DNA from: Halalkalibacter oceani
GTDB taxonomy: Bacteria > Bacillota > Bacilli > Bacillales > Bacillaceae_D
DNA: 64,000 bases
Direction of reading: 5' to 3'
Assembly (NCBI RefSeq): GCF_023715605.1
Contig: NZ_JAMBOL010000003.1
Location: 62,001-126,000 of the forward strand
Positions 5,647-17,348 of this stretch are shown here, piece after piece; within the stretch, counting starts at the first letter, position 1, and each line of letters starts with the position of its first letter. A program made the position numbers and the translations under genes. The notes beneath the pieces were generated by a model. It saw only the letters and a program-made list of their open reading frames with translations, searched no databases and had not been told where the DNA came from.

Positions 5647-5674
5647 GAATTTCCAGAGAAAGCTGGCGTTGAAA

Positions 5675-5715
5675 AGAGGTAGACAAAGGGCGCGCTTCGC
5701 CTTTTGTCTACCTCT
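5675..5715. terminator. Bidirectional terminator between convergent genes
   Basis: Arms of about 15 bp (from 5675 and ending at 5715; AGAGGTAGACAAAGG and complement) separate the plus-strand serine hydrolase from the minus-strand 12-gene operon. There are T-rich stretches on both outgoing sides. Confidence 0.75.
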
Positions 5716-5746
5716 TGATTTTAATAGGATGTGAGCCGCGTCTTCT

Positions 5747-6529
5747 TTACTCAAACCTCGGCTCTCTTTTTTCAAAGAACGCTTTAACGCCTTCCTCACA
5801 ATCGCGCGTTTGAAAAACCCGATCACTCAGTTCCAGCGTCAGCTCCGTATTCTCGGCAACGGTCAATCTCGCTGATCGCTTAACTCCTTGTTTAATCGCT
5901 TTTAATGATGCCTTTGGCTTTTGTGCAAGTCTTTCTGCAAGACGAAGCGCGTAATCAAAAACGTCGTCGTCAGGAACCACTTCATTGACTAGTCCGATGC
6001 GGTAAGCCTCCTTAGCGTCGATTAAATCGCCGAAATACATCAGCTCGAGAGCCTTCGCTTCGCCGACGACTTGCGGAAGACGGAATAACCCGCCGCTTCC
6101 CGGAAAGACACCTAAATTAACCTCTGGAAAGCCAATGCGGCTCGTTTCAGCGATAATCCGGATGTCACACGCTAACGCTATTTCTCCGCCGCCGCCGCAG
6201 GCGACACCATTGATCGCGGCGATAACCGGTTTTGGCAGCGCCTCGATCGCGTTGAAAGCTTCGTTTTCCTTTCTTAGCTTTTTTCCGATAACATCATCCC
6301 GCACGCTTGGAAATTCGTTAATATCCGAGCCGGCGCAAAATGCTTTTTCACCGGCACCGGTTAAAATGACGACCCGCACTTCATCATCCGCTTCAATTTC
6401 TTGCAAAATGGAACGCAACTGCTTCGTCGCTTCGAGCGTCGTCACATTCAAGGGCGGATTGTTAAGCGTCAGCACCGCCACTTTATTTGTTCGTTTTTCA
6501 AATTGAATCAGTTCACTTGCTACGGTCAT
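5747..6529 (-). CDS. Enoyl-CoA hydratase/isomerase family protein
   Basis: A 260-residue crotonase-fold protein and the last gene of the 12-gene operon. The oxyanion-hole regions AFCAGSDINEF and GVACGGGGEIALACD are present, and both acid residues used by true hydratases are kept (Glu in GGGE and Glu in FPEVNLG). It should therefore add water to, or isomerise, an enoyl-CoA in the cytoplasm. A good site (AAAGGGG) precedes the ATG and the gap to the upstream SDR gene is 26 bp. With the CoA-transferase and MaoC genes it indicates CoA-thioester intermediates in this pathway. The natural acyl group is unknown. Confidence 0.85.
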   Translation of the reverse strand: MTVASELIQFEKRTNKVAVLTLNNPPLNVTTLEATKQLRSILQEIEADDEVRVVILTGAGEKAFCAGSDINEFPSVRDDVIGKKLRKENEAFNAIEALPKPVIAAINGVACGGGGEIALACDIRIIAETSRIGFPEVNLGVFPGSGGLFRLPQVVGEAKALELMYFGDLIDAKEAYRIGLVNEVVPDDDVFDYALRLAERLAQKPKASLKAIKQGVKRSARLTVAENTELTLELSDRVFQTRDCEEGVKAFFEKREPRFE

Positions 6530-6555
6530 TTCTTTTCCCCTTTCCTGAACGTAAT

Positions 6556-7341
6556 TTATAGCATAAAGGCCCCGCCGCTAATATGGAGGCACTCTCCTGT
6601 TACATAGTCCGCTTCACGGGAAGCGAGGAAGGCAATCGCCCCGGCGACATCGTCGGGCGTACCGGCGCGTGCCAGCGGCACTTCGCCAATCCGCTGCCGC
6701 TTTGGTTCCCCGACCTTCATTCCTTTCAGCTCCGCCCACTCCCGGTCGCATCTCTCCCATAATGCCGTATCAACAATCCCGGGTGCAACCGCATTAACCC
6801 GAATGCCCGTATCAGCAAGGGCAAGAGCGAACGATTTCGTTAAACTGATGATCGCCGCTTTCGAGGCCGCATAATGGGCGTAGAGCGGATGACCGTTCCT
6901 GCCCATCACCGACGCGACGTTGATAATAACTCCGCCAGTGCGGTTCTGTTTCATCGCCGCCGCTGCCACCTGCATCCCGAAGAAGCTCCCTCGCGCATTG
7001 ATGTCAAGCATCCGGTCCCAATCATCTGCCGTAATAGTTAAAATATCCTTCACTTGCTGGATGCCGGCATTATTAACCATAACAGTTAACGGGGCGGCAA
7101 ACTGCTCCTGGGCAATTGCCGGAATTTCGCTGACAGCCTCCTTGTCGCGCACATCCACAGCTAACGGAAATGCCTTCCCCTGCTGCTCTTCAATCAGCCT
7201 CACCGTCTTTTCGGCATCAGCGGCATATTGATCGGTAACGAGCACGGCCGCGCCCTCCGAGGCAAATTTGAGCGCCGCCGCGCGCCCGATGCCTTTTCCT
7301 GCTCCTGTAATCGCCACGACTTGCTTTGCCAATCTGTTCAT
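6556..7341 (-). CDS. SDR-family NAD(P)-dependent oxidoreductase (operon copy 3)
   Basis: A classical short-chain dehydrogenase of 261 residues: nucleotide motif TGAGKGIG, NNAG, catalytic Ser in NVASVMG, and YAASK. The ATG at 7341 has AGGTGA five bases upstream; an in-frame GTG nine bases earlier has no such site. An Asp after the second strand (VTDQY) favours NAD(H) over NADP(H). It sits between the DHDPS-like lyase and the enoyl-CoA hydratase. It could oxidise a hydroxy acid, hydroxyacyl-CoA or sugar acid; the SDR fold alone does not decide. Confidence 0.84.
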   Translation of the reverse strand: MNRLAKQVVAITGAGKGIGRAAALKFASEGAAVLVTDQYAADAEKTVRLIEEQQGKAFPLAVDVRDKEAVSEIPAIAQEQFAAPLTVMVNNAGIQQVKDILTITADDWDRMLDINARGSFFGMQVAAAAMKQNRTGGVIINVASVMGRNGHPLYAHYAASKAAIISLTKSFALALADTGIRVNAVAPGIVDTALWERCDREWAELKGMKVGEPKRQRIGEVPLARAGTPDDVAGAIAFLASREADYVTGECLHISGGAFML

Positions 7342-7355
7342 CGTCTTCACCTGCT

Positions 7356-8303
7356 TTAGCGGAGATTTTCCGAGCCTGGCAAACGCGCTTCAATCAGCGC
7401 CTTTCTGATCTGTTCCCTTTCTTCAGCGGAGATGCGTTGAAGCGGCGGACGGACATGTGCTTCGTCAATCCGGCCGAGCATCGCGATCGCTTCCTTCATC
7501 CGGTTATGCATATCGATAAACGGCTCGGCATAGAAAACCTGTACGAGCGGATAGAGGCGGGCGGCATGCTCTCTTGCCAATGCCAGGTCACCCTTTTGCA
7601 CGGCGTCGAACAAAGCGGCCTGAATTTCGGCAATCATACTGCCGTGTCCGGATAAAATGCCGTCCGCCCCGATGCAAAGTGAAGGAAGCAACGCCTTGCT
7701 GAAGCTCGTCAAAACAGATATATGCTTCGGCAGGGCCTTCAGCTCGCGATAGTTGCGCTCATAGACGCTAATGTCATTGGACCATTCTTTGATCGCCACC
7801 ACTTGATCAATGTCACGGCAAATCCGGACAACGGTTTCGGTCGGCAAATGCAGTCCCGACGTGACCGGATACACAAAGGCGATCATTGGCAACGATGTCG
7901 CTTCGGCGATTGCTTCATAATGACGATAAGCCATTTCAGGTCTGAGCTGCGCGCCCAGATCAAGCACAGCGGACGGAAAGATTAATAAGCAATCTGCCCC
8001 TTCCCGTTCAGCCATTTTCGCCAGCTCGGCGGCCTGCTTCGTCCCATCGGCATAAATTCCGCAAATGACCGGAATTTCCTTGTCTGCTTCTTCGACGGTG
8101 ATCGCCAGGCTGCGTTGCTGCTCCTCCCGGGTTAATGTCGCGATTTCAGCGGCATGACCATTTGTTGTGATCGCGCTAACTCCGGGCGTCTCAATCAATG
8201 CACGGAGATGGCGGCGGTAATTTCTTTCATCAATGTCCAAATCGCTTGTAAACGGCAATAAATTAGCGGGGATGACTCCTGACAGCTTTAGATCTTTTTT
8301 CAT
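7356..8303 (-). CDS. DHDPS-like class I aldolase/lyase
   Basis: A 315-residue member of the dihydrodipicolinate synthase/N-acetylneuraminate lyase superfamily. The Schiff-base Lys is K172 in VVAIKEW and the partner Tyr is Y145 in FVYPV; the substrate loop reads TTNGHAAE (46-53) instead of the GGTTGE of true DapA. It is thus probably not a lysine-synthesis enzyme (a genuine dapA lies at 24013) but a pyruvate-forming aldolase or dehydratase, such as those acting on 2-keto-3-deoxy sugar acids or the hydratase-aldolases. Its start overlaps the CoA-transferase stop by 4 bp, indicating coupled translation. Confidence 0.8.
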   Translation of the reverse strand: MKKDLKLSGVIPANLLPFTSDLDIDERNYRRHLRALIETPGVSAITTNGHAAEIATLTREEQQRSLAITVEEADKEIPVICGIYADGTKQAAELAKMAEREGADCLLIFPSAVLDLGAQLRPEMAYRHYEAIAEATSLPMIAFVYPVTSGLHLPTETVVRICRDIDQVVAIKEWSNDISVYERNYRELKALPKHISVLTSFSKALLPSLCIGADGILSGHGSMIAEIQAALFDAVQKGDLALAREHAARLYPLVQVFYAEPFIDMHNRMKEAIAMLGRIDEAHVRPPLQRISAEEREQIRKALIEARLPGSENLR

Positions 8304-9880
8304 CTTACATACCTCCTTGATTGTTTCCCTGCAAATCGCTCCGCTTCATCTAGTCCGATTTTTTCCGGGGAAAAAATGCGTTTATCCATATAAGTAAGTT
8401 CCTCTGCAATATGCGGCCGGTACTCCATTTGCTGCAAAATATCGCGCTCCAGCTCAACTCCCGGCGCAATCTCGATTAACGTTACCCCTTTATCTGTCAA
8501 AGTGAAGACGGCGCGCTCTGTCACATAATAAACTTCCTGCCCTTTTTTCAGCGCTTCACGGCCATTAAAGGTGAGATGCGCGAGTTCCCTGACAAATTTT
8601 TTATGCCGGCCCTCGTGGATGATGCGGATCGCCTGATTCTCAATCGCGACATGTAATTGCCCTGCTGTAAACGAGCCGCAGAAGACAATTTTTTTCGTCG
8701 CATGGACGATATCAATAAAGCCGCCGAGATTATATTTGCCATTAACCTTGCTGACATTAATGCTGCCATCCGAGGCTATCTGGGCCATTCCGAGGCAGGT
8801 CATATCGAGCCGTCCGGCATCATAAAAATCAAAAATTGCATGAGCATCCATAACCGCCATCATATTAACGCCGGCGCCAAACGCTTCTTTATTGTTCGGA
8901 ATTCCGCCGACCGGGCCGTGCTCGACGTTGAAAATCACCTGCTCGGCAATGCCTTCTTCAGCAGCGATTTGCGGCACGCCGGCACTAACACCGAAACCGA
9001 AGTTGACAAGCGCCCCAGGCTCAAGCTCCATTGCTGCCCGGCGCGCAATCACTTTTTTGTAATCGAGCGGTGCCGGAGCAAGCTGTTTGACAGGGAGGCG
9101 AATATCGCCGGTCCAGGCCGGATTGTATGGCATATTCTTCATTTGCTCAGGAACGAGAACAACATAATCGACAAAGATTGCCGGGACCGTCACTGTCTTC
9201 GGATGAATGCTGCCGCGTTCGGCGAGCTGAGAGACCTGGGCAATCACGATGCCGCCATTGTTTTTTGCCGCCATTGCCTGGTGGAGGATTCCGATGGAAT
9301 TAGGCTCATGCTCCAGCGACAGATTGCCATCTTCATCGGCCGTTGTCGCCCGGATGATCGCGACATCGGAAGGCAGCGCTTTGTAAAATAAAAATTCCTG
9401 GCCGTCGATCACCTGAACGGTCGCCAGCTCCTCCGTCGTTCGTGGCGTTAATTTGTTTTGCGCCATGCGCGGATCCACCATCGTATGCAGGCCAACCGCT
9501 GTCAGAATGCCGGGCTGATGGGCGGCGGCGGACCGGACCATATTGTAAAGCGCCCCGTATGGCACTAAATAAGCTTCTACCTCGTTTTCAGCAATTAATG
9601 TGTTTAATCGATCTACCTTCAGCGTATAATAGCTTCCGGCATAAATTCGTTTCACCATTCCTTTGTGGGCAAAGCGGTCAATTCCCGTGCCGCTGCGCTG
9701 TGCTCCGGGAATGACATTGTACACGAGCGTCAACTGATCAGGCTGCTCTGTTTCCAAATAACGTTGCTCAAGCTGTTGCAAAACCTCATCCGGCAGCAGC
9801 ATTTCTCCATTTCCGGAGACGCTTATCGTCTGTCCGGACTGAATCAAAGCCGCTGCTTCTTTGGCAGACAGGACTTCCAT
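8300..9880 (-). CDS. Acyl-CoA:acetate/3-ketoacid CoA-transferase, family I
   Basis: A 526-residue single-chain CoA-transferase with fused alpha and beta halves, like propionate CoA-transferase. The second half has the catalytic Glu (about E320) in NVEHGPVGG, where the glutamyl-CoA thioester forms, and an oxyanion loop of type GFGVSAGVP before it. It would activate a carboxylic acid of the pathway at the expense of acetyl- or succinyl-CoA. It lies between the GH88 and DHDPS-like genes. Its presence inside a uronate-type operon is unusual. Confidence 0.85.
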   Translation of the reverse strand: MEVLSAKEAAALIQSGQTISVSGNGEMLLPDEVLQQLEQRYLETEQPDQLTLVYNVIPGAQRSGTGIDRFAHKGMVKRIYAGSYYTLKVDRLNTLIAENEVEAYLVPYGALYNMVRSAAAHQPGILTAVGLHTMVDPRMAQNKLTPRTTEELATVQVIDGQEFLFYKALPSDVAIIRATTADEDGNLSLEHEPNSIGILHQAMAAKNNGGIVIAQVSQLAERGSIHPKTVTVPAIFVDYVVLVPEQMKNMPYNPAWTGDIRLPVKQLAPAPLDYKKVIARRAAMELEPGALVNFGFGVSAGVPQIAAEEGIAEQVIFNVEHGPVGGIPNNKEAFGAGVNMMAVMDAHAIFDFYDAGRLDMTCLGMAQIASDGSINVSKVNGKYNLGGFIDIVHATKKIVFCGSFTAGQLHVAIENQAIRIIHEGRHKKFVRELAHLTFNGREALKKGQEVYYVTERAVFTLTDKGVTLIEIAPGVELERDILQQMEYRPHIAEELTYMDKRIFSPEKIGLDEAERFAGKQSRRYVR

Positions 9881-9904
9881 TCTCTCATCCCCTTTTTTTG
9901 CCAG

Positions 9905-11020
9905 TTAATAGAAAAGCGCCAATCGCTCGTGATCGTTTTTATGAATTAAGCGGTATAACGCCTCAACGAAATAATAATCACCGTACATCGTCGACTCGCC
10001 GATCCCGGAGCGGCGCGGCTGATCAACGGTCGCTCTTTCAATCAAGCCATAGCAATCAGACCGGGGCGAAAAGCAATGGTCAACCAGCGCCTGAACAAGA
10101 AGCTCGCCGCGCTTATGCCAGCGCGCCTCCTGCTCCGCCGGTGATTGGTCGGCAAGCAGGAGCATCCCGGCTGCGGCAATGCTCGCCGCCGAAGAATCAA
10201 TCGGCGCATCCGGCTCATTTCTAAAATAAAAATCCCAGCGCGGCAAAGTCGTTCCGTCGTCAAGATGGTCCCAGAAGTAGTCAGCGAGCCTGGCGGAGCA
10301 GTCAAGATAGCGCTTCTCCCCCGTATAGCGATACATATTGGCAAATCCATACAGTGCCCAGGCCTGCCCGCGGGACCAGCAAGTTTCGGCGGAAAAGCCT
10401 TGATGCGTCCCCCGTTCAACAACAGCAAAGGACTCGGTGTCCCAGCGCACTGTATGATAGGTGGAAGCATCCGCACGCACATGATAGCGGATGATGTTGT
10501 CGGCAACCTGTATGGCGGTTTGCGCCAGTTTTTCGTTCCCTGTTTCTTGACTTGCCCAGACCATGAGCGGTAAATTCATGATCGTATCAACGATGGCGAC
10601 ACCTTCATAGCCCGGCTCATCCCAAGCCAAAATCAATCCTGCTCGCTCCTCGTAAAGATCGCTCATATTATAGGCGCCGGCAATCGCCAGCTCTTTCAGC
10701 TGGCCGTCACTTGTCAGACGCTCGCCCATTACGCAGCTCGGGCCGAAAAGAAAGCCCATATCATGCGTCTTGTTGTCATCCGTCCGGGCTTTCAACCTTC
10801 GCGCCCAAGCTGCCGCCTGCTGAAGCGCCTTCTGCTGATCGGTCTCATAGAGTGATTTGATCCATTGCAATCCCGTCCAAAAACCGCCGGTCCAATGACC
10901 GTAGCGGAATGTCAGCCATTTTCCGTCCTTCGTAATATGAGGAAAATCGCTCACTTTCTTTTCGATCTCCGTCACTTTCTCCAGGCTTTTCATTAAGACA
11001 TCTGCTAGATTATTCGTCAT
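9905..11020 (-). CDS. Glycoside hydrolase family 88, unsaturated uronyl hydrolase
   Basis: A 371-residue alpha/alpha-barrel hydrolase. Both acidic residues of characterised unsaturated glucuronyl hydrolases are found: D87 in THDMGFLF and D145 in VDTIMNLP; WSRGQAWALYGF is the other family signature. There is no signal peptide, so it should act in the cytoplasm on short oligosaccharides that carry a 4,5-unsaturated uronic acid made by an outside polysaccharide lyase. No lyase, KdgK or KDPG aldolase is nearby. The TRAP transporter encoded upstream may import its substrate. Confidence 0.85.
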   Translation of the reverse strand: MTNNLADVLMKSLEKVTEIEKKVSDFPHITKDGKWLTFRYGHWTGGFWTGLQWIKSLYETDQQKALQQAAAWARRLKARTDDNKTHDMGFLFGPSCVMGERLTSDGQLKELAIAGAYNMSDLYEERAGLILAWDEPGYEGVAIVDTIMNLPLMVWASQETGNEKLAQTAIQVADNIIRYHVRADASTYHTVRWDTESFAVVERGTHQGFSAETCWSRGQAWALYGFANMYRYTGEKRYLDCSARLADYFWDHLDDGTTLPRWDFYFRNEPDAPIDSSAASIAAAGMLLLADQSPAEQEARWHKRGELLVQALVDHCFSPRSDCYGLIERATVDQPRRSGIGESTMYGDYYFVEALYRLIHKNDHERLALFY

Positions 11021-11033
11021 CCCTCATCCGCCC

Positions 11034-11795
11034 TTAGTCCATTAAGGTGCCGCCATTGACTTCGATCATTTCGCCAGTCATGTAATCGGCTGCCTCAGAA
11101 GCGAGAAACAGCACCGCACCGACACATTCCTCCGGTGTCCCCTCACGGCCGAGCGGGATTTGCATCTGCATCTTCGCCCGCATCTCCTCTGGCGTGTAGC
11201 GATCATGGAACGGCGTCGCGATAATTCCCGGAGCAATCCCGTTTACGAGAATATTTGCGGAAGCGAGTTCCTTCGCCAGCCCCTTTGTAAACGTGCTTAC
11301 CGCCCCTTTTGAAGAGGCGTAAGCGATCGAACCGCCACCGCCGCCATTTCTCGCAGCCTGTGAGGAGAGATTAATAATCTTGCCCCCTCCCTGCTGTTTC
11401 AAAAGTGGAATCGCCTGCTTCGAGCATAAAAAGACCGATTTCGCATTAACTTCAAAGACGCGGTCCCACAGCTCTTCCTCCATTTCCTCAATCGCGGTTC
11501 GCTTTAACAGACCGCCGGCATTATTGATTAAAAGATTCAGCTTGCCATAGGTGTCAACCGTTTGCGCAAATAAGGCTTCCACTTCTTCCTTGCGTGATAC
11601 ATCGGCCTGGACCGCGATGGCGCGTCCTCCTTTTCTTTCAATCTCGGAAACAACCTCTTCCGCCTTCTCTTTGCTGTTGTTATAATTGACGACAACTTGG
11701 GCGCCAGCTTCGGCAAGCCCTTTCGCAACCGCCGCCCCAATTCCTGTGCTCGCTCCGGTTACGATCGCGACCTGCCCGTTCAATTCAATCTTCAT
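11034..11795 (-). CDS. SDR-family oxidoreductase, FabG-like (operon copy 2)
   Basis: A 253-residue short-chain dehydrogenase: TGASTGIG at the nucleotide site, NNAG, Ser in NLSSQAA and YASSK. An Asn-Tyr-Asn after the second strand (VVNYNN) is typical of NADP-preferring, FabG- or glucose-dehydrogenase-like enzymes. The start has GGGAGG nearby and lies 3 bp after the MaoC stop. In a pathway with CoA intermediates a 3-hydroxyacyl-CoA or sugar-acid dehydrogenase are both possible. Confidence 0.84.
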   Translation of the reverse strand: MKIELNGQVAIVTGASTGIGAAVAKGLAEAGAQVVVNYNNSKEKAEEVVSEIERKGGRAIAVQADVSRKEEVEALFAQTVDTYGKLNLLINNAGGLLKRTAIEEMEEELWDRVFEVNAKSVFLCSKQAIPLLKQQGGGKIINLSSQAARNGGGGGSIAYASSKGAVSTFTKGLAKELASANILVNGIAPGIIATPFHDRYTPEEMRAKMQMQIPLGREGTPEECVGAVLFLASEAADYMTGEMIEVNGGTLMD

Positions 11796-11798
11796 ACT

Positions 11799-12224
11799 TT
11801 AGTCCTCCCTGTCGATGAATTTTAAAATATGTGTTGCGACGGTACAAAGCTCGTCATCCTGATTGCGGACTTCAATCGACGCCTTTGTCTTTTGCCCGCC
11901 TTCGTCCACTTCGGTAATCGTATATGACACGGTTATCGTATCGCCGATAAAAATCGGCTGAATAAAGCGGATCCGGTCATAGCCGTATGAGACGGCAGGC
12001 AAGCCGGTTTTTTCAACCATTAATGTTGAAGTCGTCGAGGCAAAGCCGACCGAAAGCACGCCATGAGCGATTCTTTTCTTATAAGCTGTTTTACTCATGT
12101 ACTGCTCATTGACGTGATTCGGACTTAAATCCCCGGTAATCCCGGCGAACAAATACACATCGGTCTCGCCGATCGTTTTGCTGAATTGAACCGAATCGCC
12201 CACTTTAATTGGCAGCTGCTTCAT
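11799..12224 (-). CDS. MaoC-like hot-dog dehydratase
   Basis: A 141-residue single hot-dog domain. The hydratase-2 motif FAGITGDLSPNHVNEQYM contains the catalytic Asp and His of (R)-specific enoyl-CoA hydratases, and RIAHGVLSVG is the usual following block. Its ATG overlaps the stop of the Gfo/Idh gene (ATGA) and also has a GGAGAGGGGG site. It probably hydrates or dehydrates an acyl-CoA; its coexistence with a crotonase-type hydratase suggests steps of different stereochemistry or different substrates. Confidence 0.85.
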   Translation of the reverse strand: MKQLPIKVGDSVQFSKTIGETDVYLFAGITGDLSPNHVNEQYMSKTAYKKRIAHGVLSVGFASTTSTLMVEKTGLPAVSYGYDRIRFIQPIFIGDTITVSYTITEVDEGGQKTKASIEVRNQDDELCTVATHILKFIDRED

Positions 12225-13228
12225 TGCTTCACCCCCTCTCCTTTTTCTGCAAGTGAAATCACCCGCTTTTGATCTAGCGACTGCTTGACAGCATCAAGCA
12301 CTCTCATCAGCGTAACGATTTCTCTTCCGGAAGCAATCGGCTCACGCCCATCAATGATCGCTTCGCAAAACTCCGCCATTTGCCGCTCGAAATTGACGCC
12401 GCCATCAAGATAGGAGCCGTACGGCTCTGTCACCATTAGCTCATCAGCGATCCATAAATCTTTTTCATCCTTAATCCGCATCGTCCCATTTGTGCCGACG
12501 ATAATTCGCTCATTATAAGGTGGCGCGCAATGAAAGGAGAGATGAACCGTTGCTGTTTTTCCTGAAGGAAATGTCAACACAATCGTCGCCTGACTTGTGC
12601 CGGCCAGCTGGTCGCTGAAGCTTCCGCCAACCGCATAGACCGTTTCCGGTGCTTCCTCAAGAAGATACAATGTCGTATCGAGCGGATGAGGGGCGTTTAA
12701 CTCAACAATGAGATGCTTCATTTCGTTCCACCATTCCGTCAGTACCCGGTCAAACGACACACCTAAATAATGAGTTGTGTCGATCACTTCACCGATTTGT
12801 TTCTGTTTCAGCGAAGCTTTGGCGGCGCGTGCCGCCTTAAAAAAGCGCCGGCATTGCGCGATCATCAGCGTAACATGGTGCTTGTCGGCCGCTTCAACCA
12901 TTTTTTCAGCCTCTTCAACGCTCATCGCCATCGGCTTCTCGACAAGGATGTGCTTGCCGGCCTGCGCCGCGGCGATCGCCTGCTCCGCATGCACTTCATT
13001 TGGTGTGCAAAGAATAACACCGTCAATTTCAGGATTATTTAATAGCTCCTCATATTCGGTATAGATGGACGGAATGCCGTACTCTTTCGCTGCTTTTTCA
13101 GCCCGGCTGCGGTTTCTGCTCATGACAGCGACAAGCTCAGCCTTTTCCTTCGCCTGCAAGATGCTGCGAATATGAGCCGTTGATATTCTGCCGATTCCGA
13201 CTACGGCAAGCTTTACTTTCTTCGTCAA
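12221..13228 (-). CDS. Gfo/Idh/MocA-family oxidoreductase
   Basis: A 335-residue sugar-type dehydrogenase: an N-terminal Rossmann fold with VVGIGRISTAH, the EKPMAMSVEEAE signature (the Lys of EKP is the usual catalytic base) and the C-terminal open-sheet domain. I choose a TTG start at 13228 because the only good ribosome site, AAGGAG, directly touches the ATG at 13237 and is spaced 9 bases from the TTG. The substrate is probably a sugar, sugar acid or cyclitol. It lies between an SDR gene and MaoC in the operon. Confidence 0.83.
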   Translation of the reverse strand: MTKKVKLAVVGIGRISTAHIRSILQAKEKAELVAVMSRNRSRAEKAAKEYGIPSIYTEYEELLNNPEIDGVILCTPNEVHAEQAIAAAQAGKHILVEKPMAMSVEEAEKMVEAADKHHVTLMIAQCRRFFKAARAAKASLKQKQIGEVIDTTHYLGVSFDRVLTEWWNEMKHLIVELNAPHPLDTTLYLLEEAPETVYAVGGSFSDQLAGTSQATIVLTFPSGKTATVHLSFHCAPPYNERIIVGTNGTMRIKDEKDLWIADELMVTEPYGSYLDGGVNFERQMAEFCEAIIDGREPIASGREIVTLMRVLDAVKQSLDQKRVISLAEKGEGVKQ

Positions 13229-13258
13229 TCGAATCATCTCCTTCGCCTCAATTTGGCA

Positions 13259-14002
13259 TTATTCCATTAAAATCCCGCCATCGACATTCAGGCTTTCGCC
13301 GTACACATAGCTCGCTTTATCCGAACAGAGAAACAGAACGGCATTCGCAATCTCTTCCGGCTTCGCAAACCGCCCAAGCGGAATAGCGGCTGCGACACTT
13401 TCCCGTAATTCCTCGTTCAGCTGATGATGCATCGACGTATCAGCCGGGCCCGGACAAATGCTGTTTATCCGGATTCCCGACCCGGCCATCTCTCTTGCGA
13501 TTGATTTCACCATCGCCAGCACGCCGCCTTTTGACGCACCGTAGGCGGCGGTGCCGATTCTTCCACCGCCGCGCTTCGCCGTGTCCGAAGCAATCGCGAC
13601 GATGCTGCCGGTCTTTTGCGGCAGCATCAGCTCATATGATTTCTGCACGCAAAGAAATGTGCCGCTTAAATTGATCCGTATAACCTCCTCCCATTCAGCC
13701 AACGTCAGCTCAAGCAGCTTCGTTTTATTAATCACGCCGGCACACGTCACGCAATGATCAAGCCTGCCGAACTGCTGGCCGATAGCGTCAAATAGCGCTC
13801 CAACGCTCTCCTCATTCCTGACATCAACCTGATAGGCGCTTGCCCGCCCGCCGTATTCCCTGAACACCGCAGCGACAGCTTCCGCCTGTTGCAAATCGCG
13901 ATCAGCAAGGCAGACGGTCACTCCTTCCTTGAAAAAAGCTTCCGAAACAGCACGGCCTATCCCGCTTGCTGCCCCGGTGACTAAAGCAACTCGTTGATTC
14001 AT
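13259..14002 (-). CDS. SDR-family oxidoreductase (operon copy 1)
   Basis: A 247-residue short-chain dehydrogenase following the transporter genes. Motifs are TGAASGIG, CAGV in place of NNAG, Ser in AIASDTAKRG and YGASK. An Asp at the end of strand 2 (LADRD) favours NAD. The three SDRs in the operon differ clearly from one another in sequence, so they are more likely three separate steps than recent duplicates. Confidence 0.83.
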   Translation of the reverse strand: MNQRVALVTGAASGIGRAVSEAFFKEGVTVCLADRDLQQAEAVAAVFREYGGRASAYQVDVRNEESVGALFDAIGQQFGRLDHCVTCAGVINKTKLLELTLAEWEEVIRINLSGTFLCVQKSYELMLPQKTGSIVAIASDTAKRGGGRIGTAAYGASKGGVLAMVKSIAREMAGSGIRINSICPGPADTSMHHQLNEELRESVAAAIPLGRFAKPEEIANAVLFLCSDKASYVYGESLNVDGGILME

Positions 14003-14041
14003 CTCGATCAGCTCTTTTCGCTCATATTTTTTTGTTTTCCG

Positions 14042-15376
14042 TTATGGACAAATATAGCCGCCTTCCGGTCCGACAAAGCAGCCGACTGATTCCGGCATAA
14101 AGACCTTCGGCAAATACAGCACCGTATCAGGGAAAAAGACGACGATCGTCAAGGTGATAATAAACACTCCATACATCGGCAAGCATTGCAGCAAAGCGTC
14201 TTTAAAGCGGACCTTTGACAACCCGGACGCCAAAAGCAAAGCGAGGCCGTACGGTGGTGTAATTAAACCGAAGGCAAGCGTGATAATGACGATAACCCCC
14301 ATATGAACCGGGTTGATATTGCCAAGTTCGACAAGGGAAATGACAATCGGCATAAAAATAATGATCGCCGGAACCGCATCGACAAATTGGCCGACAACAA
14401 TAAACATCAGGATGACAAGAAACATAATCAAAATCGGATTGGTGCCGGCAAAGCGCTCGATATAGCCGGAAACGACTTCGGGCGCTTTTAAGTAAGCAAT
14501 CATCCAGCCGAACGCCGAGGCTGCCGCGACGCAGATTAACGGCACCGAATAGAGGACGCCGGCATTCATAAAATCTTTATGAAGATGGCGCAAATGGCTC
14601 TTTTTTAGGACGGGAATCGCGACGCAGATCGTGTAGACGACGGCAATCATCCCGGCTTCTGTCGGCGTAAACCAGCCGCTCAAAATTCCGCCCATAATAA
14701 TAAACGGAATCATCAGCGGAAGCGCCGCCCTCTTTGCTGCCTGGCTGATTTCCACAAAGGTCGAGCGCTGTTTGCGAATCGGCGGCGCCTGAAAGAAGAA
14801 ACAATACACCATAAAGCCGCCGGCGATTAAGATGCCGGGAATAATTCCTCCAAGAAAAATGCCGATAATCGAAACTCCGCCGCTCGCCCCGTAAATGATC
14901 GCCATAATGCTCGGCGGCACGATATTGGCCAATGTCGCCGTTGCGGCGATCAACGCCGCGGTAAAGGCCGGATGATAGCCTTCATTTTTCATCTGCGGAG
15001 CGAGGATTCTCGTCGCCGCAGCCACATCAGCGGTTGAGGAACCAGACATCCCCGCGAAAAACAGACTGAAAACGGTGTTTACTTGGGCCAGCCCGCTGCG
15101 AATATGACCGACCAGGCTGTTGGCCAGGCGGATAATCCGCTCGGTAATATTCGTTGAGGCCATCAGCTCGCCGGCAAGCAGGAAAAATGGAACCGCCATC
15201 AGCGGGACGGAGTTAATCCCGTTAAACAGCTGACCGACCATTGAAGGAAGGCTGATCTCTGTGAACAAGGTGGCAACGAGCACGCTGGCAATAATCGCAA
15301 AGGCAACAGGCACGCCAATTACACCAAAAAAGAGAAACAGAAAGCTCATTAATCCGATTATCATTCCAGCTGACAT
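14042..15376 (-). CDS. dctM: TRAP transporter large permease DctM
   Basis: A 444-residue protein with about 12 membrane segments, starting with a GxxGxPVAFAII helix typical of DctM/SiaM. It forms the sodium-driven channel of a tripartite TRAP transporter for carboxylates or acid sugars. Its ATG overlaps the TAA of the small permease gene (TAATG), and GAGGAG lies upstream. The cysteine- and glycine-rich C-terminal tail after the last helix is unusual. Confidence 0.9.
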   Translation of the reverse strand: MSAGMIIGLMSFLFLFFGVIGVPVAFAIIASVLVATLFTEISLPSMVGQLFNGINSVPLMAVPFFLLAGELMASTNITERIIRLANSLVGHIRSGLAQVNTVFSLFFAGMSGSSTADVAAATRILAPQMKNEGYHPAFTAALIAATATLANIVPPSIMAIIYGASGGVSIIGIFLGGIIPGILIAGGFMVYCFFFQAPPIRKQRSTFVEISQAAKRAALPLMIPFIIMGGILSGWFTPTEAGMIAVVYTICVAIPVLKKSHLRHLHKDFMNAGVLYSVPLICVAAASAFGWMIAYLKAPEVVSGYIERFAGTNPILIMFLVILMFIVVGQFVDAVPAIIIFMPIVISLVELGNINPVHMGVIVIITLAFGLITPPYGLALLLASGLSKVRFKDALLQCLPMYGVFIITLTIVVFFPDTVLYLPKVFMPESVGCFVGPEGGYICP

Positions 15377-15939
15377 TATCCGGTCATCTCCTCTTCATCC
15401 GACTTGTTTTCCTCAAACATCGAGTGCGTATGAAATCCTTTTTTCCACCCATTAATGAGCTGCTCAATCGTAAAGAGGGAGATCAGCACCCCGGAAATGG
15501 GAAGAATAACGGTCAAGACAGCGATCGGGGTCATTGAAGGCATCAAATAGCTTTGAAAGCCGTGCAGGAAATTGATGTAGCCGAAATACAATAACGACAG
15601 AGCAACACCGAGTACGACAAGACGGTTAAATGTTTCCAGCAGTACGCGGCTTGCTCCTCGCAAATTTTCAGTTGTATTGGCAAGTATGACATGCTCATTA
15701 CGGCGTACGGCAACCGAAGCGCCTAGAAAGATCCCGTAGACGAAGAAGCCCAATGTTACCTCTTGGAGCCAGAGCCACGGATGACCTATCGAGCGGGTAA
15801 CGACGTCTAGAAAGACACCTAATGTAAAGCCCGCTATCGCCACTCCGCAAAGAATCATCAAAATCCGCTCCAGCACATCAAATGCTTTCCATTTCAAGTT
15901 GCGGTCTTGTTGAGAAACAATCGTTTCCTTTTGACTCAT
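15376..15939 (-). CDS. dctQ: TRAP transporter small permease DctQ
   Basis: A four-helix membrane protein of 187 residues when started at the ATG at 15939, which has GAGGTG at the right distance; the open frame extends 24 codons further without a site. DctQ pairs with DctM. The motif RNEHVILANT matches the conserved segment after helix 2 of the family. About 105 bp separate it from dctP. Confidence 0.87.
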   Translation of the reverse strand: MSQKETIVSQQDRNLKWKAFDVLERILMILCGVAIAGFTLGVFLDVVTRSIGHPWLWLQEVTLGFFVYGIFLGASVAVRRNEHVILANTTENLRGASRVLLETFNRLVVLGVALSLLYFGYINFLHGFQSYLMPSMTPIAVLTVILPISGVLISLFTIEQLINGWKKGFHTHSMFEENKSDEEEMTG

Positions 15940-16045
15940 TCCAGACACCTCACTTTTGTAGAACGGGTCTGCTCCAAAGACGGAATGGCTGTTGAAGCAG
16001 ACCTTGCTCAAATTGCTGGCGATCCGTTACCGAAAACGAGTTTGC

Positions 16046-17116
16046 TTAGCGCAACGCACGAACGAGCTGTAAAATTTTCTCGGCATGCGGTCCCATTTCC
16101 GCCGCTAATTGATCCTGAATCGGTTCGGCCGCTTCCATAAAGCCCGACTTGTCTACCTCCTTCACCACTTTCACTCCAAGCTCTTCCAGTTCGGCCAACG
16201 ACTCCGCTTCCAGCTCCAATGCCTTCTTCGGCTGGTTTTTGCCGACTTCATCAGCGGCAGCCTGAACCCATTCCCTTTCTTCTTCCGTTAAGCTTTCCAT
16301 CACTTTGTCGCTCGCCCAGACGACGGAATTGTTGGCGGCATGCTGAGTAATCGAGAGGATCGGGGCAACCTCATAATGCTTGTTTTCCAAATAAACATTA
16401 ATGCCGTTTTCAGCGATATCCATTACTCCGGTCTGGAGTGACGTGTAGACTTCGCCAAATGCCATATGAACGGTTTGCGCTCCATAGGCCGGCATATGCA
16501 CGTCCTCGGTTCTTGTGGCTTGTACGCGAATTTTTTTGCCATTGAGATCGTCGACGCTCTGAATTTCATCCTTGGAATACATATTGCGCAAACCTAGCGT
16601 CATCGGCGACAATACTTGTGCTCCGGTTACCGACTCACTGAACATATCCTTCAATGCCTGCGTGACTTCCGGATCAGCCAAGGCGCGGGCGAGGTGGTCT
16701 TCATCCTCAAAAATATAATGCAAGGAAAAAACGGCTGACTGCTCCGCTACAGTTGTCGCATTCGCAGTAGAACTGATAATAAAGTCAATATCTCCGGAAC
16801 GAACCTTTTGCAGCATTTCAGGCTCTGAGCCAAGCTGAGCTCCCGGATAATGGGCAATCGTCATCTTGCCGCCGCTTAATTCTTCAAGCTTCTCACGAAA
16901 AATTTCTCCGGCGATTCCGTAACCGGTGGACTGCGGCTGGTCGTAGCCGAATGAAAATGTTCGCACTTCTCCATTATTTGCGGCCTCCCCGCCGGCATCA
17001 GGCGCCGGTGCATCCGGAGTTTGTGCAGGATCGCTTGACGTTCCGCCACCGCAGGCAGCAAGCATCATGATAACGCTTACAAATAAAATCACCGTAAGAC
17101 CTCTTTTTTTTCCCAT
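16046..17116 (-). CDS. dctP: TRAP transporter substrate-binding lipoprotein DctP
   Basis: A 356-residue extracellular binding protein with a lipobox LAAC (Cys22), so it is lipid-anchored as usual in Gram-positives. The DctP fold is recognisable from the GYPGAQLG-type loop and from IRVQATRTEDVHMPAYGAQ, which contains the Arg that normally clamps the substrate carboxylate. It is the first gene of the 12-gene operon, with AGGAGG before the ATG and a ~200-nt leader holding two operators. The ligand is an organic or sugar acid, identity unknown. Confidence 0.9.
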   Translation of the reverse strand: MGKKRGLTVILFVSVIMMLAACGGGTSSDPAQTPDAPAPDAGGEAANNGEVRTFSFGYDQPQSTGYGIAGEIFREKLEELSGGKMTIAHYPGAQLGSEPEMLQKVRSGDIDFIISSTANATTVAEQSAVFSLHYIFEDEDHLARALADPEVTQALKDMFSESVTGAQVLSPMTLGLRNMYSKDEIQSVDDLNGKKIRVQATRTEDVHMPAYGAQTVHMAFGEVYTSLQTGVMDIAENGINVYLENKHYEVAPILSITQHAANNSVVWASDKVMESLTEEEREWVQAAADEVGKNQPKKALELEAESLAELEELGVKVVKEVDKSGFMEAAEPIQDQLAAEMGPHAEKILQLVRALR

Positions 17117-17194: not shown

Positions 17195-17210
17195 TAAGAA
17201 AACGTTTACA
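17195..17210. promoter_or_regulatory. cre-like operator, proximal copy
   Basis: TAAGAAAACGTTTACA differs from the CcpA cre consensus (TGNAARCGNWWWCA) only at the first T of the core. It lies in the dctP leader, about 79 bp upstream of the dctP start, downstream of the predicted promoter. A CcpA or other LacI-family protein is the likely binder. Confidence 0.65.
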
Positions 17211-17278
17211 TTTTTTTCGACAAATTCTTTGAATTAAAAGCGGTTAAATTGGAGAAATCAGCTAAATTACGCATAATA

Positions 17279-17319: not shown

Positions 17320-17348
17320 ATTCTAGCGGCTCAGAATCGATCAGTCAA
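17320..17348 (-). promoter_or_regulatory. Sigma-A promoter of the TRAP/GH88 operon
   Basis: On the minus strand TTGACT (17343-17348), a 17-base spacer and TAGAAT (17320-17325). Transcription would start near 17313 and give a leader of about 200 nt. Confidence 0.7.

Follow-up and report, generated by a model that had tools for sequence, protein, structure and literature searches.

A minus-strand operon of 12 genes in the 64,000-nucleotide stretch of Halalkalibacter oceani DNA analyzed here (the window) combines a glycoside hydrolase of family GH88 with a coenzyme A (CoA)-transferase, a crotonase of the enoyl-CoA hydratase (ECH) family and a tripartite ATP-independent periplasmic (TRAP) transporter. 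The link between GH88 and the CoA genes is not an accident. We consider a CoA-assisted route for the breakdown of imported D-glucuronides (or D-mannuronides), in which CoA chemistry on the sugar acid would precede the action of GH88, slightly more probable than the contrary. The chances of this route are close to even because its reactions are inferred, the CoA-transferase of the window belongs to a different family than those of the smaller related gene sets, and six genes of the operon have no firm role.

Recurrence of CoA genes beside GH88

Sequence, active site and predicted fold all identify the GH88 protein of the window as a complete unsaturated glucuronyl hydrolase (UGL). It scored 37.8 bits with the Glyco_hydro_88 model of Pfam (cut-off 26.6) and matched the Bacillus UGL 1vd5 at 1.4e-50 in phmmer. 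Residues H86, D87, D145, N149, H189, H206, Q207, W215 and R217 are kept, most of which we take to be the catalytic Asp pair and substrate-binding residues; the role of one residue is documented by a D88 mutant entry among the titles of UGL structures. All of the 12 best Foldseek hits of the predicted model (pLDDT 79) were UGL chains, the first with a TM score of 0.83. GH88/UGL enzymes require uronides with a delta-4,5 double bond (PMC12838403). Neither the operon nor 20 other scanned open reading frames (ORFs) of the window contained a polysaccharide lyase, a genome-wide lyase search not having been made. Likewise, no model for KduI/KduD or DhuI/DhuD, 2-keto-3-deoxygluconate (KDG) kinase or 2-keto-3-deoxy-6-phosphogluconate (KDPG) aldolase exceeded its cut-off in the ten operon proteins scanned. 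The absence of KDG and KDPG genes, which an earlier model-made reading of the letters alone (the sequence-only reading) had pointed out, holds for the operon but not for the genome, where a KDPG aldolase gene (PF01081) is located outside the operon at C11:32914. Compared with the UGL/KDG pathway, the window shares the active site and fold of GH88 and the expected product, 4-deoxy-5-keto-uronate, but it has a CoA-transferase and a crotonase instead of the lyase, KduI, KduD, KDG kinase and KDPG aldolase. The main text of a 2025 survey of UGL clusters contains no word starting with CoA (PMC12838403), and searches for GH88/UGL with CoA-transferase, for uronyl-CoA and for glucuronide with CaiB returned no relevant open-access title or abstract, subscription papers and preprints being outside their scope.

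A scan of the species-genome collection with exact peptide patterns, which detects close relatives only, yielded seven GH88 loci. Once the near copy of the window operon (L002) and the distant locus L008 are set aside, six loci including the window make up the clade. A CoA-transferase and a crotonase are present within 5 kb in four of these six non-redundant loci (window/L002, L003, L006 and L007). In L003 (Bacillus sp. FJAT-50079), GH88 is accompanied by a CaiB-type CoA-transferase and a crotonase. The unit of L006 (a Chitinophagaceae bacterium) consists only of a CaiB-type transferase, a crotonase, GH88 and a transporter of the major facilitator superfamily (MFS), with opposite-strand genes on both sides, and the same genes in the same order were found in L007 (a Bacteroidales bacterium). 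In contrast, none of 16 control GH88 neighbourhoods contained a match to CaiB, CoA-transferase, ECH or MaoC at 1e-5 (Fisher p 0.002, and 0.0075 when the window is excluded, both uncorrected for kinship). The controls lie outside the window clade and outside a second GH88-like clade; they comprise 11 loci from a phylum search of 398 genomes (L099-L109), four plasmids (L040, L041, L042 and L044) and L008, which has short flanks, and they omit the in-genus loci L011-L014, with flanks of only 2 kb, and the place in genome G409, one of 12 GH88 places. The clade itself is rare: the starting genome was the only one to contain it among 397 genomes of the order, and likewise among 395 genomes of the class set of L007. 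With a loose cut-off, GH88 was matched in five of 13 genomes of the genus, but the clade includes only two of these matches, the window's own and the near copy, and in the family set of L006 four of 195 genomes matched, the three beyond the starting genome being weak (239-260 bits) and left outside all counts.

A second line of evidence comes from Ammoniphilus, where a 72% match to the dihydrodipicolinate synthase (DHDPS)-like protein of the window led to a cluster (L025, G409:C7:140507-154623) in which ten of the 12 window genes have orthologs at 57-75% identity, namely dctP, dctQ, dctM, SDR1, Gfo/Idh, MaoC, SDR2, the CoA-transferase, the DHDPS-like protein and ECH (SDR, short-chain dehydrogenase/reductase). 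The GH88 gene of this genome resides on another contig, and a KDPG aldolase and an IlvD-family dehydratase are encoded about 10 kb beyond the cluster. The LacI genes beside the Ammoniphilus cluster, the Ammoniphilus GH88 gene and the Bacillus trio form one group with 51-60% identity, compared with 27-37% to six other LacI proteins; those at the Ammoniphilus cluster and at the Ammoniphilus GH88 gene are 60% alike. An operator, TYTAAWCGRTTARA, is common to L003, L005 (the Ammoniphilus GH88 locus) and L025, with eight sites at no more than one mismatch; none of the other 13 listed stretches had it, and control DNA of 187.6 kb contained it a single time. Exact copies occur at four places in the 5-Mb Ammoniphilus genome, three of them at the cluster and the GH88 locus, and at four places in the Bacillus FJAT-50079 genome, three of them at the trio; the leftover place in each genome adjoins genes of unrelated look.

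That the connection of GH88 with CoA genes is not accidental is shown by its presence in four of six clade loci and in none of the controls, and by the LacI proteins and operator common to the separate loci. A chance grouping of the operon genes is rejected on the same observations together with the Ammoniphilus cluster. The possibility, raised along with the sequence-only reading, that CoA genes and GH88 occur only as separate units was checked and does not apply to the four loci where they are joined, and its view of one catabolic operon, in which an imported acidic glycoside is degraded by GH88 and CoA enzymes together, is borne out by the neighbourhoods, the Ammoniphilus cluster and the operator. 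We consider it quite improbable that the operon merely co-transcribes two unrelated units, namely a conventional UGL acting on oligosaccharide ends produced by lyases and an independent CoA pathway for some organic acid. Such an arrangement would be in line with L004, with the position of the L007 set behind a SusC/SusD-like pair and GH18 genes, and with the existence of TRAP operons that contain a CoA-transferase, ECH and MaoC but no GH88, two of them in the window genome. Against it stand the recurrence of one crotonase subfamily with GH88 in two phyla, the shared operator where the genes are apart, and the lack of CoA genes beside the control GH88 genes.

The crotonases support the connection from a different side. 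Those of L003, L006, L007 and L025 are 54-61% identical to the window crotonase, and residues E116 and E136, presumably the two catalytic Glu of crotonases, are invariant in an alignment of the GH88-linked proteins. Six of the seven genomes queried contained one copy each of this subfamily at 457-470 bits, with the next paralogs at 207-224 bits, using a model that was built from five of the sequences it then scored; it was not found in the seventh, Sporosarcina, whose GH88 gene adjoins a KDPG aldolase and a PfkB-like kinase. In plasmids, the L007 crotonase reached 40-44% identity among the matches listed (the best 15 of 806), with 42.7% for the top-ranked one and none at 60% or more. The nearest solved relative of the window crotonase is the 3-hydroxypropionyl-CoA dehydratase 5zai; 3-hydroxypropionyl-CoA dehydratases and short-chain enoyl-CoA hydratases share both catalytic Glu with the GH88-linked crotonases, which form a subfamily of their own. 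The window crotonase is proposed to be a uronoyl-CoA dehydratase. The CoA-transferase, which shares one operon with the crotonase in the window as in L003, L006 and L007, is proposed to charge the uronide with CoA; the Glu of its VEHG motif aligns with that of VETG in YdiF, and we take this Glu to be catalytic. The CaiB-type transferases of L003, L006 and L007 are 72-75% alike across two phyla and are nearest to succinate-hydroxymethylglutarate CoA-transferase.

A proposed CoA-thioester route to the GH88 substrate

In the route that we propose, a uronide would be imported by the TRAP transporter, and the CoA-transferase would place CoA on the sugar's own carboxyl group. The thioester would be a 3-hydroxyacyl-CoA, since the C4 hydroxyl is its beta hydroxyl and H5 its alpha hydrogen. 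The crotonase could then remove water (C4-OH and H5) by syn elimination to give a delta-4,5-unsaturated uronoyl-CoA, a step for which the stereochemical fit was computed, and the transferase would move the CoA to the next glucuronide, releasing the free unsaturated uronide. GH88, with its intact active site and by the known chemistry of its family, would hydrate the vinyl ether, whereupon the glycosidic bond breaks to yield the aglycone and 4-deoxy-5-keto-uronate. An SDR followed by an aldolase or kinase route might convert the keto-uronate to pyruvate, while the other oxidoreductases, MaoC and the DHDPS-like protein might process the keto-uronate or the aglycone; these late assignments are the most tentative ones.

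Crotonases catalyze the syn elimination of the pro-2R hydrogen and a (3S)-hydroxyl group to a trans enoyl-CoA. In a computed ideal-chair geometry, the D-gluco configuration has C4 as (3S)-hydroxy, H5 as pro-2R, C6 and C3 in trans and H5 and O4 gauche. The geometry of a D-glucuronide matches that of a crotonase substrate exactly. The computed D-galacto form, which is 3R with H5 and O4 anti, is a misfit, and in the L-ido form H5 occupies the pro-2S place. By reasoning rather than computation, D-mannuronides should fit as well because their C4 and C5 are the same as in D-gluco. A precedent for the cycling of CoA is carnitine metabolism, in which CaiB transfers CoA between the product and the substrate of the crotonase CaiD, as described in the text of PMC2131755. 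Common to both systems would be a transferase that cycles CoA and a crotonase that dehydrates a 3-hydroxyacyl-CoA. The window differs by its proposed substrate, a sugar uronide, by the GH88 gene next to the CoA genes and by its family I transferase.

In the sequence-only reading, GH88 acted first, and the aglycone or sugar acid that it released was then loaded with CoA and hydrated. This order is probably wrong: the recurrent set of transferase, crotonase and GH88 and the stereochemical fit both favour CoA loading and dehydration before GH88. A rival explanation keeps GH88 first, acting on an imported unsaturated glycoside, and has the CoA-transferase, MaoC and crotonase degrade an aglycone acid in a manner similar to beta-oxidation. 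Indeed, MaoC, SDR and crotonase together resemble beta-oxidation, the orthologous Ammoniphilus cluster, which is without GH88, contains a gene that by eye resembles acyl-CoA dehydrogenases, the GH88-like gene of L097 is accompanied by a CaiB match and, by eye, by aldehyde dehydrogenase (ALDH)-like and acyl-CoA-dehydrogenase-like genes, and the MFS transporters of L006 and L007 are HpaX-like. We nevertheless regard this explanation as unlikely. The L006 unit, reduced to transferase, crotonase, GH88 and MFS transporter, has no genes for beta-oxidation or thiolysis and consequently nothing to handle an aglycone, no thiolase was detected in the ten operon proteins scanned, and GH88 would still require a double bond although the operon has no lyase.

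Another rival explanation has some other sugar acid, such as an aldonic or hexaric acid, as the substrate of the CoA enzymes, with GH88 only releasing it from an unsaturated glycoside; we consider it very improbable. This idea draws on CaiB/ECH pairs that occur near sugar genes without GH88 in Rhodococcus koreensis, R. qingshengii, Glaciihabitans, Variovorax and Sinorhizobium medicae, and such pairs indicate that CoA-dependent dehydration of sugar acids may be broader. However, the GH88 product is an alpha-keto acid, which is ill-suited to the dehydration of a 3-hydroxyacyl-CoA, and the small L006 set would be left unexplained.

Glycosidic bonds are known to be cleaved by hydrolases, lyases, phosphorylases and oxidation-elimination routes, and glucuronides are a main tag on small molecules in animals and many plants. 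A tentative proposal, for which we see slightly more room for doubt than for confidence, is a lyase-free cleavage of glycosides via CoA thioesters that should be blind to the anomeric configuration and could act on conjugates that resist glucuronidases. If true, the CoA-thioester route would join chemistry of the fatty-acid type with the breakdown of glycans and glucuronides. No polysaccharide lyase would be needed to feed GH88, which would account for GH88 beside CoA genes without a lyase, and a testable function would fall at once to a rare clade of GH88, a single subfamily of crotonases and a single one of CaiB. Given this role of glucuronides as tags, a route blind to the anomeric form would be of practical use.

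Observations against the proposed route and the wider distribution of CaiB pairs

Several observations weigh against the CoA-assisted route or weaken its support. The transferase of the window is of family I (YdiF-like), whereas the smaller sets use the CaiB type (family III), and six operon genes (three SDRs, Gfo/Idh, MaoC and the DHDPS-like gene) are superfluous to the core model. Within the clade, the GH88 genes of L004 and L005 have no CoA-transferase, ECH or MaoC gene within about 10 kb; in L004 (Sporosarcina) GH88 is found with a KDPG aldolase, a PfkB-type, KDG-kinase-like sugar kinase (identified by eye) and a TRAP transporter, and in L005 its sole companion is a LacI gene. The L007 set lies directly behind two GH18 genes and a SusC/SusD-like pair on the same strand (L007:825-7998) and for this reason is perhaps not an independent unit; these genes also give a hint to the substrate. 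The MFS transporters of L006 and L007 scored best with the aromatic-acid permease HpaX (289-304 bits), followed by the galactonate transporter (276-281 bits), both under the cut-off. Genes for iron-dependent alcohol dehydrogenases (Fe-ADH) and ALDH near GH88 in L003, an Fe-ADH gene in L082 and genes of this kind identified by eye in L097 and L098 would also suit the breakdown of an aglycone. As to the operator, the window has no TYTAAWCGRTTARA site, one of the eight sites falls within a dctP gene, and the pattern was drawn from the very sites that were then counted, so that the count is not blind.

Further reservations of this kind arise from the CaiB side and from the GH88 tree. Of 36 plasmid records with such a CaiB-type transferase, 14 were examined; most of these regions (12 of 14) lacked GH88, and two, from Halostagnicola and Bradyrhizobium, had a GH88-like gene within 2 kb. 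In the haloarchaeon Halostagnicola, CaiB and the GH88-like gene are accompanied by an AMP-binding ligase and MaoC, in Bradyrhizobium a DHDPS-family gene is added, and at a second locus in Ammoniphilus CaiB, dctP, ECH and a GH88-like gene follow one another, so that three independent pairings at a distance of 1-3 kb, found from the CaiB side, speak in favour of the link. A search of 14 other genomes of the order yielded relatives of the GH88-like gene at the second Ammoniphilus locus (66-70%) in two, in one case next to a CaiB match. These genes belong to the second GH88-like clade (L043, L045, L082, L097 and L098), in which the HD motif is replaced by VF, AF or MF and four of the five genes have CaiB genes as companions; since the motif is lost, their chemistry should differ, and they may do something else. 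If the lyase-free strategy exists, related CaiB/GH88-like sets from archaea and Pseudomonadota, whose GH88 active sites are altered, would form another branch of it. On the GH88 tree, all eight CoA-linked GH88 proteins fall into a set of 12 rows apart from 19 others (91/86), but this set includes four without CoA genes. Clustering of the CoA label is modest (five changes versus 7.3 after shuffling, with 14 of 500 shuffles as low), and the control L103, one of the four without CoA genes, is placed weakly beside the window clade.

Operon layout and accessory genes

The 12-gene operon is real, conserved and in relatives apparently co-regulated. All 12 genes that the sequence-only reading had listed were recovered among the ORFs with the same coordinates, strand and order, running from 17116 to 5747 on the minus strand (Table 1). 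Its description of small gaps and overlaps was equally accurate, with measured gaps of -4 to 39 bp, four-base overlaps at DHDPS/CoA-transferase and MaoC/Gfo-Idh and a one-base overlap at dctQ/dctM. Pfam models above their curated cut-offs back its family names for ten of 12 proteins (ECH, three SDRs, DHDPS-like, CoA_trans, Glyco_hydro_88, MaoC, GFO_IDH_MocA and DctP); these ten were the proteins covered by the Pfam/NCBIfam scans, dctQ and dctM being named by position and by relatives in other TRAP clusters.

Table 1. Genes of the operon and flanking signals in the window
Feature	Position	Strand	Basis or remark
Hairpin of 19 pairs directly after ECH, terminator-like	5674..5716		listed for + strand; 8-pair form 5702-5681 for minus strand
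Crotonase (ECH), GH88-linked subfamily	5747..6529	-	Pfam, alignment, PDB search
SDR3 oxidoreductase	6556..7350	-	Pfam
DHDPS-family protein, NGHAxE subgroup	7356..8303	-	Pfam, alignment
Family I CoA-transferase (YdiF/FadX type)	8300..9880	-	Pfam, NCBIfam, alignment
GH88 unsaturated glucuronyl hydrolase	9905..11020	-	Pfam, phmmer, fold
SDR2, candidate reductase of GH88 product	11034..11795	-	Pfam; L025 ortholog
MaoC-type hydratase/dehydratase	11799..12224	-	Pfam; 75% to L025 copy
Gfo/Idh/MocA oxidoreductase	12221..13237	-	Pfam, NCBIfam
SDR1 oxidoreductase	13259..14002	-	Pfam; L025 ortholog
dctM, TRAP large permease	14042..15376	-	position; 75% to L025 copy
dctQ, TRAP small permease	15376..16011	-	position; 64% to L025 copy
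dctP, TRAP solute-binding protein	16046..17116	-	Pfam; PDB matches
Palindrome ATGTAAACGTTTTCTT in operon leader	17196..17211	-	coordinates converted by hand from reversed stretch
Promoter-like site TTGACT-17-TAGAAT upstream of dctP	17320..17348	-	consensus match only

Promoter-like sites as a whole were hardly above chance (14 found, 11.7 expected). The palindrome in the leader resembles what we take to be a cre site of CcpA, which suggests catabolite control of the operon. Being listed for both strands, the hairpin behind ECH may act for the genes on either side. The nearest relative found is the near copy in a Halalkalibacter oceani genome (L002, 93-100% identity). There, the dctP ortholog consists of two ORFs of 175 and 178 amino acids (L002:3928-4975), a split that may reflect either a pseudogene or an error of sequencing; dctP of the window is intact.

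The solved structures matching the window dctP include glucuronate TRAP binders, a group to which 4n15/4n17 presumably belong, but the sialic-acid binder SiaP matches as well or better. Counted by eye, dctP carries the R..20..R..40..N triad of glucuronate-type binders; as SiaP has this triad too, it is not specific for glucuronate. The triad and the glucuronate-binding proteins 4mhf and 4n91 are described in the text of PMC7660916. For SDR2, the score with the KduD model was 198 bits (cut-off 339). The protein was rejected as a KduD or 4-deoxy-L-erythro-5-hexoseulose uronate (DEH) reductase, since the models stayed below their cut-offs and 23 PDB sequences at 1e-44 were mostly FabG-like and none was so named. 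SDR3 had no clear ortholog in L025/L027 when the Ammoniphilus cluster was compared. The DHDPS-like protein, which might be a YagE-like KDG aldolase and would carry out the cleavage to pyruvate of the sequence-only reading, gives a mixed picture: K172, presumably the Schiff-base Lys, is kept, and a Phe is aligned at the position of the Tyr that we take to be catalytic in DHDPS; MaoC adjoins two of its four relatives examined (L031 and L032, the others being L033 and L054). The best NCBIfam model for the Gfo/Idh/MocA protein was inositol 2-dehydrogenase (166 bits, under the cut-off of 355). This IolG-like protein and an inositol-monophosphatase-family gene in L027 are the source of a mere thought that an inositol glucuronide or one of the glycosyl inositol phosphorylceramide (GIPC) type might be the substrate.

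The window genome contains two further TRAP operons with a CaiB-type transferase, ECH and MaoC and without GH88, L078 (G000:C29:9800-29700) and L079 (G000:C52:7500-27400), one of which by eye adds flavoprotein-like and acyl-CoA-dehydrogenase-like genes. Proteins similar to solute-binding proteins of ATP-binding cassette (ABC) transporters are encoded between CaiB and ECH or near TRAP genes in L079 (1945-3108), L052 (9191-10342) and L051 (9185-10327). The likeness is weak, with L079 over the Pfam cut-off, L052 under it and L051 assigned by annotation, and the L079 protein has no obvious signal peptide by eye; possibly these proteins are enzymes rather than transport proteins. Genes of the DUF2264 family recur near GH88 or CaiB/ECH in L035, L040, L041 and L042, which represent an actinobacterium, a rhizobial plasmid and haloarchaea.

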